From positions 1-10,719 of the forward strand of contig BBXU01000907.1 in NCBI GenBank assembly GCA_001598975.1: a stretch of 10,719 nt of DNA, read 5' to 3'. A program made the translations under genes and the position numbers. The notes beneath the pieces are model-generated. The model was not told the origin of the DNA and did not search any database. It saw only the letters and a list, made by a program, of their open reading frames with translations. This document shows positions 2,310 through 10,719 of the stretch, one piece after another (position 1 is the first letter of the stretch; the number at the start of each line of letters is the position of its first letter). This stretch comes from Parachlorella kessleri. Lineage: Eukaryota > Chlorophyta > Trebouxiophyceae > Chlorellales > Chlorellaceae.

Positions 2310-3940
2310 TCACTTTGCAAACCCCTCCCCCCTCACCAGCATCTGGCAGAAATCCTTGATAGCAGACCGCGCCAGGTCGGTCACCGGCCGCTCATCAACT
2401 TTCCTGTGGACCAGTGAGTAGGAGCAGGACTTGATTTAACCAAAAGGGTTAAATAGGAGCAGGACTCGCTCTAAAACAAAGCCTCCACCTTCACTGGCTG
2501 CGAGGATGTGGTACGACGTTTGGGGCAGTAAAAGCACAGCACCCAAAACGACAAGGATTTGGCATCAGGGTGTGAAAAACGTGGGGCAGAACCATGACAA
2601 GAACGAAGGAGCAGGGTTTAGCCGGCTGCACCAGACACCACATGTGCTTTCACCAGCCTGCTGGTTATCTCACCGGATCTCAAAGTGCTTGCCGACCACC
2701 TCCTCCGCATTGCCTTCCAGCGAGGGAAATCCATCTGCAAACACTTGAGGGTTGCACGCTGGTGTGCGGCACCCAAGCAAGGACGACACCAGCAGCTAGC
2801 AGCACGAGCCAGCTGGTCAGACAGGTGGCCAAGGCACAGGCAAGCACATGAAGTCCTGACACTGGCCAGAGGGCAGAAAAGCCCTCTCTAAGCCAGAGGG
2901 CAGTACTTTCGCAAGCAAACCCAAGCGGCCCTGCCAGGGCAGGAGTTGCAAGCAGCCATCTATAAGTGCCTGATAATTCTCATTAATCCACATGCAGAGC
3001 TGATCATAGTCTTGGGAAGGAGTAACAGTTGAGCATGACAGGGCGACAGCTAACCGCTCTACATACCTGCGCCCTTGCCAACCCACTCGTGCTTCAGGGC
3101 AATCTGGTCATCAAAGGCCACCCGCACGTCATTAGCACTCACGCCATCCTTCAGAAAGGACACGTCAAAACCCCACAGCAGCCCTTCCCTGTAAAAAGGA
3201 ACCACCTGCAAGTCACACAGGCAGGCTGCCCAATTGATCAAATGCCAGCCTGCTACCCTTACCAACGTGACACCATATGCAATAAGTTCTTGCTAAACAG
3301 CTTTCCATGGACAGCATAACCAGCCAAGCTTGGGCAGACGAACTTCTACAAGGTGATGTGAATTAGTCACGCAATACGCGCTGGTGGAATCAACAATGCT
3401 GGAGGAAAGGACAGGTGTTGCACAACTGAGGTGCCCAAGGGAGTCTCAGCCGAGGAATACCTTGCAGGGCATGCCCAGGTTGGCCACGCCATTCTCCTGC
3501 ACCTCGATAATCGCCCACCGCACCAGCTGATCCATCAAGTCAGAACGCGGGATGAAGGCAGGGATCTCAGTCCTGGTGATGAGCTTGCCCACCTGCCAAG
3601 GACCAACGGAGTGGGAACAAAAACTAGCAAGCTTGGCTTGGCTGCAGGCCAGGCCCGCCAAAGGCCACAAGGCCGAGTCGAGGCCGCAGATAAACCGGAA
3701 CCAAACGGCCAGGCTGCTCAGCAGTAGGCAGAATATCCTGGCATGTTGCTGTGGCCACGATGGTACCTCTGTGGTGGACTGGCACAGCACGACTGCGGCT
3801 CCTCGCATCATGTTAGTTTTTCCAGCGAAGCTGCGGCGCTGCTTAGGTGTACAGGACTGCTTCTGCCTCTGCCCAAGGCCATGACGATAGGCCTGCCGGC
3901 ACTGAGCAAGGCCCACTTGCTGCATGGTCACACAAAACAT
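2310..3940 (-). CDS. Organelle-targeted conserved protein of unknown function, 199 aa, five exons
   Basis: The exons on the minus strand are 3940-3767, 3592-3461, 3205-3067, 2734-2674 and 2403-2310 (stop TGA). All four introns (174, 255, 332 and 270 bases) are GT-AG and every junction keeps frame, including two codons split by introns. ATG 3940 is the first after an in-frame TAG at 3952-3950; a second in-frame ATG lies at 3925. Residues 1-58 are rich in Arg, Lys, Gln and Ser with no acidic residue before Glu58, as in a chloroplast or mitochondrial transit peptide. Residues about 59-191 form a compact alpha/beta-looking domain. Notable motifs are EIPAFIPRSDLMDQL with RWAIIE in exon 2, LLWGFDVSFLKDG in exon 3, and HEWVGKGADGFPSLEGN across the exon 3-4 junction. 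I have an unverified impression of a green-lineage plastid family of the DUF7148 kind. No catalytic residues are recognisable. It is transcribed divergently from the repeat-protein gene. Confidence 0.8.
2419..2466. repeat. Palindrome flanked by a 13-bp direct repeat (gene 2 intron 4)
   Basis: ATTTAACC (2434-2441) and GGTTAAAT (2447-2454) are perfect complements separated by five bases. The 13-mer TAGGAGCAGGACT occurs at 2419-2431 and 2454-2466, exactly flanking the palindrome. The whole 48-base structure sits just upstream, on the minus strand, of the acceptor used at 2404. Confidence 0.85.
2865..2903. repeat. 12-bp direct repeat with internal hairpin (gene 2 intron 3)
   Basis: GCCAGAGGGCAG occurs at 2865-2876 and 2892-2903. 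Between them GCCCTCT (2881-2887) pairs with AGAGGGC (2868-2874) of the first copy and also matches the second copy. Two alternative short hairpins are therefore possible. It lies inside intron 3 of the minus-strand gene. Confidence 0.8.
3767..3940 (-). other. Exon 1 of gene 2: transit peptide
   Basis: Codes for 58 residues with many Arg/Lys/Gln/Ser and Cys, an Arg-Arg-Ser-Phe-Ala-Gly stretch, and an Ala-Ala-Val-Val segment near the end. The exon ends in GAG before the donor GTACCA, in phase 0. Both candidate starts (3940, 3925) have A at -3. The basic, acid-poor composition followed by a different-looking domain in exon 2 is typical of an imported organelle protein. Plastid versus mitochondrion cannot be decided by eye. 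Confidence 0.65.
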
Positions 3941-4903
3941 GGTCTCTGTCTACGGAAATGTAGTGGCTCGCCACACAGAGATTGCCAGAAGAGAAGCAAG
4001 CGTCCCGTTCGTGACTACCTTTGTCACGTAACCCCGCTTTTCTTTGGGCTTGCCCGTTCCCTTCCGTTCCTAAGCATCATTGCTTGTGATATTTTTCCTG
4101 CCGTCTCTCTCAATACTATAGCAAATTGAATTCCTCCTTGGCGTTGCCCAGCCCCTTGTAAACGCAGCCAGCTGCTGTCTGTTTTCCATGGCGGTCCGTC
4201 AGTATCAATTACTTTGTCAGACCTATGACTAGGTGAGGAGATCTCGACCTTGAAGCAGCAGCTTTCTTCTCGGAAGCATGCCGCACTTGCTACACAAGAG
4301 ATAGCCTTCTTATCCCGGGCAATGTCCTTGGTTGGAGGCGCCCGTCTATTCCTGACAGGGGTACTGGAAGGCTTCCTTGTGACAACAACGCATAACTTTA
4401 CAAGGTCCACCCTTCCTTGCCATGTAGTCTACCACTCATCCCAGGCAGACTACCAGCAGCCAGCTTAGCCAGGACTCAGGCTGGGACTGTCAATGCCTGC
4501 GTTGACAATCGTACAGCCACCAGCAGGCATCCTATATTTTCATCACTGCAAGCCCAGGTGGGTGTATTCTGGGGGAACCTCATGTAGCTAGCGAAATGCT
4601 TCTGCTGTAGTGAGGAATGAGGCATGTGACCTACAGGCTGAGCACCAACCCTCGGTGTGTGCAGATTGTTCATATTGAGCTGCTGGCATAATGATGGGGG
4701 CTGCCGCAAGCGGGGCGGTAGCCTCAGGCTGTTGAGTGCGTGGGCTGCGCAAGGCAGGCCATGTCAAAGGGCTGCGAGCCTTCGAGCAAGTCAAACAGTT
4801 CAGGTGTGGCCTCGGGCGTTATTGAGTGTGGCAGCGTTAATGCACATTGCAGCAGACTTGCCGCAGGGTATTTTGGCGGCACTTGGTGCGACGCTTTTCA
4901 GAT
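3941..4903. promoter_or_regulatory. Shared upstream region of two divergent genes
   Basis: Gene 2 starts leftward at 3940 and the modelled gene 3 starts rightward at 4904, so this roughly 960-base region must hold both promoters and 5' UTRs. I see no clear TATA box or other core element. GC is lower than in the exons. Non-ATG open frames here (minus 4410-4024, plus 4250-4468) lack splice-phase support. An extra 5' exon of gene 3 may lie in 4657-4803, where all three plus frames are unusually open. Confidence 0.45.
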
Positions 4904-5068
4904 ATGGTGTTGCGACCACAAGCTGCCTCAGGGTTTTTATTATGGATGCCACGTTCACTGTGGTGCATATCAGCCGTGGTCTTGCTACCTCAAGTTGGCC
5001 GTTTCAAGCTCTTGCAGGCCAGGGCTGTTGCCGTCCAAGAGCAGGAGCAGCAGCTTCCTCTCACAATG
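4904..5068 (+). other. Targeting-like N-terminal segment of the repeat protein
   Basis: From ATG 4904 the frame gives about 45 residues with Arg, Trp, Leu, Ser and Ala, including MPRSLWCISAVVLLPQ, then a Gln/Glu-rich linker (residues 46-54) before Met55. An in-frame TAA at 4838-4840 closes the frame upstream. The composition suggests import into chloroplast or mitochondrion. A TTGCAG acceptor at 5012-5017 in phase 0 means the segment could instead be partly intron, in which case the true N-terminus lies further left. Confidence 0.4.
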
Positions 5069-8000
5069 CACCCTAATGAGGCATGGGGCTGGAATGATCC
5101 AAACATGCTGGAAAGGGCCAGCCGGCAGCAGCTACATCTAATCCTCAGCCAGCTGCAAGCGGATGGGGAGATCTCAACAAAGCAGGTGCGGAACGCTGTT
5201 CACCGAGAGGCCGCAATTTGGTTGCCCAACTACAAGTTGGCAAGGCTGGAGCTACTTAAAAAGAGGTGATCGTTTTAGGCCTTAGTTATTGCTTTTGTTG
5301 TGACCTGTGGGACCGCTGGCTTTGTCCAATGTCAATTAGCTGGCCCCCTGGCTGAGGGTCAGTGCTGCTGGGTGCGTGTGCGTCGCTTAAAAAACCTGAA
5401 GCCGGAGTCCTGGCTTTTGTATGCAGGTGGCACTGGCAAGTGATTTGGCAGCAGACTTGCAGCTTGTGCGGTTGGCTCCAGACCTGGTGGCCGCTGCCCT
5501 GCTAGTGGTCCTAGCCCGCGCTGAAGGCCGCAGCATGCCGCTGAGCGCTGCCTGCCGTGCAGTGCATGGCGCATGTGGCTCCGGCCGGTACTCGGAGATG
5601 CTCTGCACCTTGGTACGGCAGCTGGAAGAGACCTGGCAGGTGAGCTCAGCTCCACAACCTGCCGCGCCCTGAGTGGCGGAGGTGCTTGACTGTGGACGAA
5701 CTGACCCTACAACTGCACCTCCTTCAAAGGATGGCCTAGCTGATCATCGAGACAGAATTAAGAAGAGTCAGAGGTGAGGTGTCCTACGACTGGCCCTAGT
5801 GTGACTCACCGCAGGCTAGCTCCAGGTGGCAACAGCTGCTGGGCCCGGCCGTGAGCTCCCACACTCTGGTGGTCCAACAAGTGCAGCTCCTCTTGCAGCA
5901 GCTGGCGATCGTGGGGCCGCCGGAAGTGGCAGCATGCGCACCCACAGCCGCTACAGCGGCGGCGGCCCTCGCACCTGACAGGGAGGCGGCCGGGAACCTT
6001 GCCGGAGGCTTGCTGCTGCTTGCCAGCCGCAGCCTGGCAGCACAAGGGCAGCGCCAGCTGTCGTGCAGTGCTGTTGCTCAGGCCATCCAGGCGGCCGGCT
6101 GCGAAGCCAGTACCACTGGGGTTGGAACCGCTGCAAGGCGGCTGGAGCCTGTCTTGCACACGCTGGGGCTTCTGAGCCCTAGCACGTCTGAGGACCCTGT
6201 AGCACTGCGCCATAAGCAGCTTGAAAGGCTGTTTGCGCAGCTCTCTGCCCAGGGACAGGTTTTGCCAGCTGATGTGCCGGTGCTGCTACGCCTGGCAGCT
6301 GCCATGCCCAAGAGCAGCTGGCCTGCCGGAGCCACAGCTGCAGCTCTGCTGGTGGTGCTGGGGCGGGCTCATGGCACAACCGTTGGGCAGGGCGCGGCAG
6401 TGGCGGTAGTGCGGGGGGCAGGTGGCCAGATACGCAGTGGCATCTCTTTTCATGTGAAGCTGCTGACTCAGCATTGGGAGGTGAGCATGCAGAGGGCTGC
6501 ATGTCACTCTAGCCCTTGCATCCTTCTCAAAGCCTCCGGTATGTCCCTAGGTCATTAGCAGCAGCCTGAATGTGTGTATCCTACTGTAGACTGACGTGCC
6601 GGCCGTGAAGGGCTTCTTTGTGACACCTTGCTGAGTGTCACCTTCTGCTGCTGCAGGCCAACACTGAGTGGCAGTCCGTGCTGGGTCCCGCCAAGGACGC
6701 TTCAGCGCTGGCTCGGGAGCGCCTGGCGGCACTGGTGCAGCGCGTGTCAGACCAGGGGGCCTTGCAGCCTGAGCGACTGGCACTTGCTCTGGAAATGGCA
6801 GCCAGCATGCCGCCAGCGGTGCTGGGGCAGCCACATCTTGTGGGCGGGCTTGCCGGCGCGCTGCTGGTCCTGCTGGCGGCCACGCATGGCGAGAGGCTGG
6901 CGAAGAAGCGAGCAGAGACGCTCATACATGCTGCTGGGGGCGAGGCTAGCACGTCTGGCATCACCCACAACCTGGAGCGCCTGCAGGAGCACTGGCAGGT
7001 GGGAGGCACGTCACAGCCAGCCGCTGACAGTGGTCACGATCATCCCTTGTCGACCAGATTAGAGCCTGCACAGAGGTGTATTAGTTAAGGTCTGCCTGTT
7101 GCAGGGGAGGCCTAGGCTCCCGGCATCCTTATCAACCTGTCGGCATGTTAGCATGGTGGGGTACTGCGCTCCTAAGGGCATTTTTGCAAAAGGCCTGGCA
7201 GCTGACAAGCCCAAGTTCAGTACAGGGGATATCGCCAAAGTACCATATGCATTCCCTTGCATACGTGGAGCGGTTTCTGCTGCTCTGTGCCCCTGCAGAT
7301 CAGTAGAAGTTGGCGTGCAGCCTTCGGCGAAGCACCAGAGGTGGCCGCATGGCACAGCCGCCCTGCGCCGCTGCAGGAAATCCTGCTGCGCCTCCAAGAG
7401 GCAGGCCACATCCAGCCTGCCCTGGCCCCTGCAATCGACCACCTGGCTGGCAGGCTGCTGCTGCGCCCAGCTGCCCATGGGAACTTTGTCGCAGCGGTGC
7501 TAGTGGCGGCGGCTGATGCTGCGTGCGTGCAGCAAGCGGTGCTGCCAGGGGTATCAGCAAAGCAGCAGCAGCAGCGGCACCTGACCATCCGGCAAGCGGT
7601 GGCTGCAGTGAAGGCGGCTGGCGGCAGCGCTTCCCTGGGCCGCACAGGAGCCATGCTGCGCAGGCTGCTGGCCGGCTGGCAGGTAGGTATTGACGGCCTC
7701 TGGCTGAGAGGATGGTGTGCAGGCTGCTCAAACAGCAATTTTGGTGTTATAGGACTCCTTGGCATGCGCTGCTGCCCCTATGCTTGACTATGCGGCCTAC
7801 ACGCCTGCGGGTCAGCTGGCATTGGAATTGGCCTGGCAACCTGCCCCATGCACCACATCTAGCACGTAGGTGTCCTCCTTGCAGGCGGGTGATACTGGCC
7901 ACCAAGCTGTCCTGGGAAGATATGAAGTGCCTGGCGGGAGCGACTCCCTCCCTCAGCTGGAGCAGGCCCTCAAGGAGCTTTGCTTTGCCGGCGTGGTGCC

Positions 8001-9916
8001 ACCCTCCCAGCTTGCGACTGCGCTGCAGCTGGCAGGCGGCCTGACACTGAAGGCCCGGCAGCCGTGGCAGGCCGGCAACATGGCTGCCGCGTTGCTGCTG
8101 GTGCTGGCGGCTGCACAGGGGCGGCGCCTGCTGCCCGCACAGGCAGCCGAGGCGGTGCAGCGCGGCATTGGGGCCGAGCCGGAGGCAGCCGCTGTGCACC
8201 GGCACAAACTCTCGGCGTTCAAGCTCTGGCAGGTTGGTTCCCCACGTGCGCACACACTCGGCAACCATGTCTAGTTTCACTGATTCACGGAAGACCAAGG
8301 TACCACGTGATGGCGGCGGGGGATATGGTTCGGTGTGCCCTGTTGGCAAGGGTTCTACTGCCCTGCAAGGACCCTCCAACCGCCCCGTACTCACATGTAT
8401 TATCACCTACAGCAAATTCTGCCTCGTTTGTGCGCCCACCCGTGTGCCCGCCCCTGTTGCAGTCCAGCAAGGAATGGCAGGCATTGCTGGGGCCCAGCCC
8501 GCTGTCCCCGCCCCCCACCCGCACCACAGTGAGTGGGCTGCTGCGGGGCCTGGCCAGCCAGGGCGCGCTGCCCTCCAGCCAGCTGCAGCCCGCACTGGCC
8601 CTGGCCCGCAGCCTGAGAGTCCAGCAGGAGCAGGCGGGCGCGGTGGCGGGCGCACTGGCAGTTGGGTGGGCTCGGTCGTCGGGCAGGGCCGGCAGCGTGG
8701 AGGGCGTGGTGCTGGCGCTGAGGGCGGCTGGGGGCGCCGCCCGGGCGCCTGAGGTGGAGCAGCAGCTGCGGTGGCTGGAGGAGCGATGGGGGGTGAGTGG
8801 CGGCTTGGTCAGGGCAAGCCGACCCTGTAGTAGTTTTCCTGCGCTTCCTCTTTTTACTTCACTACAGGGTCATTGTGGGAAGCACGAGTTTGGCCCATAG
8901 TCTTGATTCCATGCGAGTGGCCCCAGTGCCAGGCGCGCGCGGGCTGAGGAGATGTTGCAGCAGCATCGCGTCTGGCCAGTGGTGCTGATCTATCATTGTT
9001 GTAGCAAGGGGGCCTGACTTGGCCCTGCACGTCTCATGCCTTCAGCCGCCCACCGCCTGGGCTGCGGCTCTGCGGCACCCGCGCGCCGCTGCGCACCAGC
9101 AGTGCTGGCACGTGCTGGCGAGGCTGCTTGTGAAGCTGGAGGAGTCGGGGCACCTGCCGCCTGGCAAGGCCTGCAAGGCGCTCCACTTGGCACAGAGTCT
9201 GCAGGTGCGTGCTCAGTGGCGCAGCTGTAGCTACAACATGGATGTGCAAGCTACCCTGTGTGCATTGCACTGGCAGGGATCCATGCCTGCAGGCTGATCA
9301 AGTCATCGGTGGTTGGTGTTTGGGTCTCGCTTTAAGGGATTCCTCATGTGCTTGTGCAGTGTGCAATGCCAGTCCAAAAGTTTACCACTGTTCCTGTCCA
9401 GCGGTATGAAAAATCAAGTGTCCAAAGGAGCTTGTTTGGGAATTTATGTGTCGCCAACGTGCGCCGACCAGGACTATTCAACCTGGCAGCGTGACCCAGT
9501 GCTATGTGTTGATGATGGCAGGCAATGCGGACAGAGGGGCCAGGAGCAAACTGTACCAACAGCGGTGGGTGCAGTAATGCGCTGAGGGTTGCTTACTCTT
9601 ATATATGAAGTGGAGCATCTGAGATGCTCCGCAGGTGTGGACGGGTCGGGGGCCCTCCCAGAGGCCTGGCAACGTGGCCGGCGCGCTGCTGCTGGTGTTC
9701 GCTCGTGGTGCTGACGGCCGCCGCACGCTGACCTGTGGGCGGGCAGTGGCGGCCGTGAGAAGCACAGGGGAGGTCGCGTGTGACAGCAGCGTGACCAAGT
9801 GGCTTGCCAGGTGCATGCAGCAGTGGCGAGAGTCTTCGGATTGGCAGGACACTTTGGGCCCGCCGCCACCAGGAGGCGTGCCAGGGTGCCGCTCAGGTCG
9901 AGGTCGTAGTCTGTGA
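4904..9916 (+). CDS. Tandem helical-repeat protein, ~1001 aa, nine exons, putatively organelle-targeted
   Basis: The exons are 4904-5185, 5427-5639, 5815-6480, 6657-6998, 7299-7682, 7885-8232, 8463-8792, 9046-9204 and 9635-9916 (stop TGA). All eight introns are GT-AG and phase 0, and no stop interrupts the joined frame of 1002 codons. Residues 1 to about 45 are hydrophobic and basic with no acidic residue, then Ala-Arg-Ala-Val-Ala-Val, resembling an organelle transit peptide. From residue 55 there are eight diverged copies of a unit of roughly 100-128 residues, then the start of a ninth. A typical unit opens with EWQxLLGP, then runs through a leucine-rich helix, QGxLPxxxLxxALxLAxSL, AGxxAGALLVLLAxxHG, AVxAVxAAGG and LxxLxxxWQ. 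That looks like four or five helices per unit. I recognise no family; the length does not fit PPR (35), OPR (38), HEAT or ARM repeats. No catalytic motif is visible, so a scaffold or nucleic-acid-binding role is only a guess. The 5' end is the weakest part: ATG 5066, or a start in an upstream exon spliced to 5018, are alternatives. Confidence 0.75.
5066..5639 (+). repeat. Repeat unit 1 (split by intron 5186-5426)
   Basis: The first half (exon 1 end) carries a leucine-rich helix and QADGEISTKQ. The second half (exon 2) carries VALASDLAADLQ, PDLVAAALLVVLARAEGR, a helix with AACRAVHGACG, and ends LEETWQ at the donor. It lacks the WQxLLGP opening of the other units and has AWGWNDP there. The splice joins CAG to GTG in phase 0. 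Confidence 0.7.
5815..6180 (+). repeat. Repeat unit 2
   Basis: Opens RWQQLLGP, then a helix with LLLQQL, an alanine-rich segment, AGNLAGGLLLLASRSLAAQG, AVAQAIQAAGCEAS and RRLEPVLHTLG. It is 122 residues. The closing Trp-Gln of other units is missing (Leu-Gly instead), and there is no intron between it and unit 3. Confidence 0.75.
6181..6480 (+). repeat. Repeat unit 3
   Basis: At 100 residues it is the shortest complete unit. It lacks the WQxLLGP opening, then has LFAQLSAQGQVLPAD, LLRLAAAMP, AGATAAALLVVLGRAHG, VAVVRGAGGQ and LLTQHWE, and ends exactly at the GTGAGC donor at 6481. It shares the 666-base exon 5815-6480 with unit 2. Confidence 0.8.
6657..6998 (+). repeat. Repeat unit 4
   Basis: One exon, one unit, 114 residues, and the clearest example of the consensus: TEWQSVLGP, SDQGALQPERLALALEMAAS, LVGGLAGALLVLLAATHG, AETLIHAAGGEAST and LERLQEHWQ. 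Flanked by TGCTGCAG and GTGGGA splice sites, both phase 0. Confidence 0.85.
7299..7682 (+). repeat. Repeat unit 5, with Gln-rich insertion
   Basis: One exon, 128 residues. Opens RSWRAAFGE, then ILLRLQEAGHIQP, DHLAGRLLLRP, AAVLVAAADA, an insertion of about 15 residues with four consecutive Gln (CAG run near 7562-7575), AVAAVKAAGGSAS, and LRRLLAGWQ before the GTAGGT donor. The insertion accounts for its greater length. Confidence 0.8.
7885..8232 (+). repeat. Repeat unit 6
   Basis: One exon, 116 residues. The opening Trp is lost (GHQAVLGR). It then has LKELCFAGVVPPSQLATALQ, LAGGLTL, AGNMAAALLLVLAAAQGRR, AEAVQRGIGAEPEA and LSAFKLWQ at the GTTGGT donor. The AAGG motif is replaced by GIGAEPE. Confidence 0.8.
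8463..8792 (+). repeat. Repeat unit 7
   Basis: One exon, 110 residues. Opens KEWQALLGPSP, then LLRGLASQGALPSSQLQ, ALALARSLR, AGAVAGALAVGWARSSGR, VVLALRAAGGAARAPEV and LRWLEERWG at a perfect GTGAGT donor. An internal GTGAGT at 8529-8534 is a second potential donor in the same phase. Confidence 0.85.
8821..8871. repeat. 11-bp inverted repeat around a pyrimidine tract (gene 3 intron 7)
   Basis: GACCCTGTAGT (8821-8831) and ACTACAGGGTC (8861-8871) are perfect complements. The 29-base loop is pyrimidine-rich (TTCCTCTTTTT). The right arm contains an AG preceded by the tract, which would make a plausible 3' splice site ending at 8867. Confidence 0.85.
9046..9829 (+). repeat. Repeat unit 8 (split by intron 9205-9634)
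   Basis: The first half (9046-9204) has TAWAAALRHP, LLVKLEESGHLPPGKACKAL and HLAQSLQ before the GTGCGT donor. The second half (9635-9829) has VWTGRGPSQRPGNVAGALLL, VFARGADGRR, AVAAVRSTGEVA and LARCMQQWR. Its intron falls about ten residues later in the unit than the intron of unit 1. Confidence 0.8.
9612..9630. repeat. 9-bp perfect inverted repeat abutting the last 3' splice site
   Basis: GGAGCATCT (9612-9620), G, AGATGCTCC (9622-9630) form a near-contiguous palindrome. As RNA it would fold as a 7-bp stem with a 5-base loop. It is followed directly by GCAG (9631-9634), the acceptor of the final intron, and occupies the place of the usual pyrimidine tract. Confidence 0.85.
9830..9916 (+). repeat. 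Truncated ninth repeat unit and C-terminus
   Basis: After unit 8 the frame continues ESSDWQDTLGPPPP, which matches the opening of a unit (compare SSKEWQALLGPSP of unit 7). It then turns into a Gly/Arg/Ser-rich tail of 14 residues and stops at TGA 9914-9916. It looks like the start of a further unit that is cut short. Confidence 0.65.
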
Positions 9917-10687: not shown

Positions 10688-10719
10688 GGGGTGGGGGGGG
10701 GGGGGGTGGGGGGGGGGTA
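10688..10719 (+). repeat. Poly-G / GGGT low-complexity tract at window end
   Basis: Three runs of G, two of them long, are broken only by single T residues up to the closing TA. Such runs are prone to sequencing and assembly error, so the exact length should not be trusted. Confidence 0.9.

Follow-up and report, generated by a model that had tools for sequence, protein, structure and literature searches.

Eight diverged tandem repeats with a predicted cyclin fold in a gene of the green alga Parachlorella kessleri

The repeat array described here lies on the plus strand (4904-9916) of a 10,719-nucleotide stretch of Parachlorella kessleri DNA (contig BBXU01000907.1, assembly GCA_001598975.1), referred to at its full length as the window, and comprises eight diverged units of 102-128 residues followed by the stub of a ninth. 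The array is real, and the explanation that we favour, and hold to be reasonably probable, is that the gene encodes eight tandem cyclin-fold domains arranged as beads on a string and working as a multivalent binding array. The cyclin fold is central to transcription initiation and to cell-cycle control. The gene product would accordingly consist of eight five-helix boxes of the TFIIB, Brf, cyclin and retinoblastoma kind, mostly encoded one per exon and followed by the stub. Tandem duplication of a phase-0 exon, followed by divergence, is the probable origin of these domains. Each box would present a surface like that by which cyclin boxes bind a partner, be it a protein motif or duplex nucleic acid, and the eight distinct boxes would most likely hold several partners, or one extended partner, simultaneously.

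An earlier, sequence-only reading of the window had proposed eight diverged copies plus a fragment of an approximately 110-residue unit within 4904..9916 on the plus strand. Both the number of copies and the unit length (102-128 residues as measured) were borne out by a leave-one-out test in which each unit was scored against a profile of the other seven: held-out scores of 32.0-73.3 bits were obtained, compared with maxima of 10.4-15.0 bits among the 1,998-2,000 scored shuffles per unit. The ordered motifs named in that reading (WQxLLGP, AGALLVLLA..HG, AVxAVxAAGG and L..L...WQ) are visible in the unit alignments, and the identity of the units within the protein to the reference unit is 23-35%. 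Outside the exons, a six-frame scan of the window using a profile of these units and their relatives gave no score above 6.9 bits, and the stub, which scores -0.6 bits as a separate match, was recognised by its motif alone. Rfam and tRNA scans gave no match. The exons and units of the gene are the following.

4904..5185, plus strand: exon 1, a possible leader (residues 1-58) and then the first part of unit 1 from about 5078; donor AAGCAG/gtgcgg, phase 0.
5427..5639, plus strand: exon 2, the remainder of unit 1 (held-out score of unit 1, 55.9 bits); relative P0010, 57/71 identical.
5815..6174, plus strand: unit 2, the first half of exon 3 (47.4 bits); modelled as a five-helix domain; relative P0001, 67/83.
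6175..6480, plus strand: unit 3, the second half of exon 3 (62.6 bits); modelled with five helices; relatives P0001, 74/96, and P0003, 54/98.
6657..6998, plus strand: unit 4, equal to exon 4 (73.3 bits); modelled alone; relative P0007, 100/114.
7299..7682, plus strand: unit 5, equal to exon 5 (32.0 bits, the lowest score); Gln-rich insert; relative P0008, 101/128 plus five gap columns.
7885..8232, plus strand: unit 6, equal to exon 6 (49.1 bits); relative P0002, 102/116.
8463..8792, plus strand: unit 7, equal to exon 7 (59.5 bits); no relative found.
9046..9204, plus strand: exon 8, the first part of unit 8 (held-out score of unit 8, 55.9 bits); relative P0006, 49/53.
9635..9916, plus strand: exon 9, the remainder of unit 8 to about 9829, the stub ESSDWQDTLGP (about 9830-9862), a Gly/Arg-rich tail and the stop codon (9914-9916).

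The exon joins were predicted from the genomic sequence. The spliced model has nine exons and eight introns, all of them GT-AG and in phase 0, and encodes 1,001 amino acids in one frame; it is the donor at 5185, combined with an exon starting at 5427 (the first acceptor), that brings all nine exons into this single frame. The model replaced a first gene model in which exon 1 ran to 5265 and the next exon began at 5441; that version kept the frame but used a second-choice acceptor and added 22 residues to unit 1, whose held-out score rose from 40.3 to 55.9 bits with the replacement. Of the eight introns, six stand at unit ends, one residue behind the closing Trp of the unit, and the other two interrupt units 1 and 8; units 2 and 3 share one exon with no intron between them. 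The assignment of the start codon is uncertain, and an upstream exon is possible because acceptor-like CTTTTCAG stands immediately before the ATG at 4904. The Gln-rich insert of unit 5 (about 7515-7583) is located between helices 3 and 4 and differs in length and sequence in the close relative P0008.

Structure prediction for a single unit, which the sequence-only reading had put forward as a check, was performed using AlphaFold2 (AF2) for unit 4 and returned a five-helix domain (predicted local distance difference test, pLDDT, 88.9; predicted template modelling score, pTM, 0.80) with cyclin-fold neighbours; units 2 and 3 were modelled as closed five-helix domains. A cyclin fold consists of about 100 residues in five alpha-helices, and this is what the predicted models of unit 4 and of units 2-3 contain, with the helices arranged as in solved cyclin boxes. 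Entries for TFIIB, Brf, cyclins and retinoblastoma proteins make up the structural neighbours of the modelled units. Repeats of TFIIB and Brf2 lead the structural rows for unit 4, unit 2 alone fits the boxes of cyclins K, T and D at 2.5-3.0 A (cyclin K at 2.5 A), unit 3 was matched to solved structures only jointly with unit 2, and the Foldseek rows of exon 3 include the retinoblastoma pocket chain 3pom_B. With two libraries and two aligners the PDB rows were almost all cyclin-fold entries, and TFIIB or cyclin names headed the viral list. On these models we predict the cyclin fold with good confidence for unit 4 and with less confidence for units 2 and 3; for units 1 and 5-8 it is predicted by profile similarity only. 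The models support the helical, beads-on-a-string character proposed earlier, while two other parts of that proposal, an unrecognised fold and an alpha-solenoid-like build, find no support in these closed domains and their structural neighbours.

Known cyclin-fold proteins differ from the array in length and in sequence. Cyclins have one or two boxes according to the available text of PMC6170502 and PMC6971155, and they share with the units the predicted fold, as the fit of unit 2 to cyclin K illustrates, whereas eight boxes are proposed here and the Pfam cyclin families PF00134 and PF02984 were absent at E <= 1. Two cyclin boxes, with a differing mutual orientation, are likewise described for Rrn7 (PMC5489313, available text). 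The retinoblastoma proteins come closer in architecture, since the accessible parts of PMC2475671 describe four cyclin folds thought to stem from internal duplication and propose an adaptor-type role; their four boxes form two pairs, in contrast to the eight units of the array, and the retinoblastoma Pfam families were also absent at E <= 1.

These likenesses bear on a possible though doubtful alternative, namely that the protein is a cyclin- or retinoblastoma-like protein scaffold whose boxes recognise kinases or short linear motifs and whose array assembles a regulatory complex. The fit of unit 2 to the cyclin boxes and the adaptor role proposed for the four-fold retinoblastoma proteins speak for it; the missing Pfam cyclin match speaks against it. 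A Lys-Glu pair contacting the cyclin-dependent kinase (CDK) has been proposed as the defining feature of cyclins (PMC6971155, in the text available).

Sequence searches against named families placed none of the units, as the earlier reading had anticipated: none of the Pfam and NCBIfam models reached its curated cut-off, and PF00382 (TFIIB) was absent at E <= 1 whether single exons, 13 unit sequences or the whole protein were scanned. A scan of the genome using PF00382 found nine places, none of them in the window. A PDB sequence search with profile A3 gave six matches, the best at E 0.021 (p70), which were taken as chance. Two cyclin-like repeats (PF00382) make up the core of TFIIB and archaeal TFB and of Brf1 and Brf2, compared with the eight units here. 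The N-terminal zinc ribbon of the TFIIB, TFB and Brf family was not seen in the 1,001-residue model, which may lack a first exon, and the two matches of a loose Cys/His pattern scan of 3401-5500 both fall outside the exon frames.

More distant similarity was assessed by comparing the unit profile with profiles of the archaeal TFB repeats, which were built from 79 of 80 archaeal loci (one incomplete locus was left out) plus one further archaeal protein. Using hhalign, the combined TFB repeats scored 17.0 (0/200 column shuffles as high, best 16.9), repeat 2 scored 16.4 (2/200 as high) and repeat 1 scored 13.1 (6/200 as high). All three alignments pair helix 3 with helix 3 (the TFB helices having been placed by the author), and the path through repeat 2 covers 61 columns with the helix order of the model. 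In global mode the score of repeat 2 was reached by 0/200 shuffles and that of repeat 1 by 112/200; in local mode with the older unit 1 the numbers were 1/200 and 7/200, respectively. A hidden Markov model (HMM) of the units gave a mean of 6.3 bits on TFB repeat 2 compared with -1.0 (standard deviation 1.6) on shuffles, with 64/80 sequences aligned at offsets 14-17, the 80 sequences being closely related; on repeat 1 it gave 0.4 bits, a value reached by 12% of shuffles. In a control with real families, one of 12 unrelated archaeal open reading frame (ORF) families, some of which may be spurious frames, scored 18.8 (over 21 columns) and thereby exceeded the TFB score. Taken together, these alignments suggest that the units may descend from TFIIB-type boxes.

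The outcome leaves some room for convergence, i.e., a five-helix bundle that came to resemble cyclin boxes without descent from cyclin-fold proteins. We regard this as rather unlikely: sequence homology is not established, which favours it, but the two libraries and two aligners agree on almost only cyclin-fold PDB entries, with TFIIB or cyclin names atop the viral list, and the weak sequence alignment tracks the helix order of the model.

The protein could also be a TFIIB-like nucleic-acid reader, in which helices 4-5 of each box, the C-terminal helix-turn-helix, contact duplex DNA and the array as a whole either occupies an extended site or coats DNA, in the nucleus or in an organelle nucleoid. 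TFIIB and TFB repeats are five-helix cyclin-like domains with such a C-terminal helix-turn-helix (PMC7865254, available text), TFIIB and Brf2 repeats head the rows for unit 4, repeat 2 of archaeal TFB agrees better in sequence than repeat 1, and the protein as a whole is basic, with a pI of 10.1 and a net charge of +28. The charge, however, is unevenly spread (unit 1 -3, unit 4 -1, unit 2 +1, unit 6 +2, unit 8 +11), the modelled protein shows no zinc ribbon, and conservation between relatives is no higher in helices 4-5 (84-85%) than in helices 1-3 (83-87%), so that helices 4-5 carry no special signal for DNA reading. Weighing both sides, we give this reader a minority chance. Still less probable is its strictest form, in which eight TFIIB-type boxes act as a repeat module, so far in one algal lineage, and each helix-turn-helix reads its own step along an extended DNA (or RNA) target; if true, such unit-by-unit binding would make the array a new kind of modular reader and the cyclin-fold equivalent of other modular nucleic-acid readers. 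It was the uneven charge, together with the unexceptional conservation of helices 4-5, that led us to choose the multivalent scaffold. The scaffold role and any partner are inferred, and protein and nucleic-acid partners appear about equally likely.

The earlier reading had also considered an organelle RNA factor. The genome of the window comes from a photosynthetic eukaryote, as its 38 exon matches to the chlorophyll a/b-binding family indicate, and like the OPR and PPR organelle factors of green algae the protein consists of tandem helical repeats rich in Ala, Leu and Gly. OPR and PPR repeats are two-helix units of 38 and 35 residues, respectively (PMC13126933, PMC12691811, PMC5541062, in the portions available), and the unit of about 110 residues might be read as three hairpins of about 37, which would make the protein a helical-hairpin solenoid. 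The Ala/Leu-rich helices, the Gly residues at turns and an OPR-like motif spacing judged by eye are in its favour, but the 102-128-residue units are modelled as closed five-helix domains and not as hairpins stacking into a solenoid. A three-hairpin reading of the OPR/TALE-like type, made by eye, was dropped on the AF2 models. PPR families were absent from the Pfam lists at E <= 1, and no PPR, TPR or OPR title occurred among the best 50 + 50 PDB rows for unit 4, below which such proteins could sit. We consider this solenoid very improbable. The organelle RNA-factor idea itself found no direct support; the first 44 modelled residues include no acidic residue, a composition compatible with an organelle leader, although the true start codon is uncertain.

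Relatives of the units were sought by searching a database of about 5.8 billion proteins twice with profiles, about 8,000 candidates being scored each time. Together the searches found ten proteins. Of these, P0009 is the window's own exon 2, and P0005 matches the window almost exactly around exon 8; a further six are close single-exon relatives (P0010 of exon 2, P0001 of exon 3, P0007 of exon 4, P0008 of exon 5, P0002 of exon 6 and P0006 of exon 8), and two are more distant (P0003, 54/98 to unit 3; P0004, 39/112 to unit 6). Exons 1, 7 and 9 had no relative in these searches. Over seven hand-trimmed pieces 550/661 residues are identical between exons and close relatives, a count that leaves aside gap columns (of which exon 5 has five) and the six residues that separate the two pieces of P0001. 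In the translated intron flanks the corresponding figure is 53/120 over seven flanks of four exons (7/31, 9/20, 5/9, 5/10, 7/9, 11/23 and 9/18), although these alignments are mostly gapped and some short flanks match the exons in similarity. At the sequence level these comparisons show conservation for single exons. The relatives are exon-sized reading frames on short contigs (longest 566-4,271 bases), and the eight-unit array has therefore been seen in one species so far.

A full-length search with the first gene model gave no match at E <= 0.001 among 7,999 candidates, and a search of viral and prokaryote contigs with exon 4 gave none. Unit searches of the window's genome (50.9 Mb, 1,642 contigs) revealed no convincing second gene. 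Weak extra matches (E 0.026 to 0.79; C45, C1073, C749, C1220, C1236 and C980) were rescanned with the unit profile together with the nine PF00382 loci (15 loci, 1,327 ORFs), and none of them came under E 0.24. The best row of the rescan (E 0.16) was a TFIIB-like stretch of the same genome, L026 (G000:C56:21501-21620), which scores 20.6 bits with PF00382, below the cut-off of 23.6, and whose alignment to the unit profile spans helices 2-4, as in the TFB alignment.

The architecture proposed here would be new and the fold known: eight boxes would be unusually long beside the four-box retinoblastoma arrays, and among the matches listed from the open-licence literature, in the text available, none was recognised as reporting a protein with more than four cyclin folds. 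If true, the array would mean that the cyclin fold can serve as an open-ended repeat module, and it would offer a natural series of cyclin folds at 23-35% identity from which the requirements of the fold could be learned. It also illustrates that repeats unseen by Pfam can be placed via predicted structure.

Elsewhere in the window, the minus strand at about 2330-3600 carries what looks like a spliced gene, its exons placed by eye near 3590-3465, 3205-3065, 2740-2670 and 2420-2330, the joined translation of which matched no Pfam family at E <= 1. On the plus strand an open frame at 688-1065, Gly/Ala-rich and with a hydrophobic stretch, resembles the last exon of another gene; no Pfam family matched it at E <= 0.01. 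A (TG)n run (1-24) opens the contig and long G runs (about 10690-10717) close it, and the assembly probably stopped at these repeat runs.
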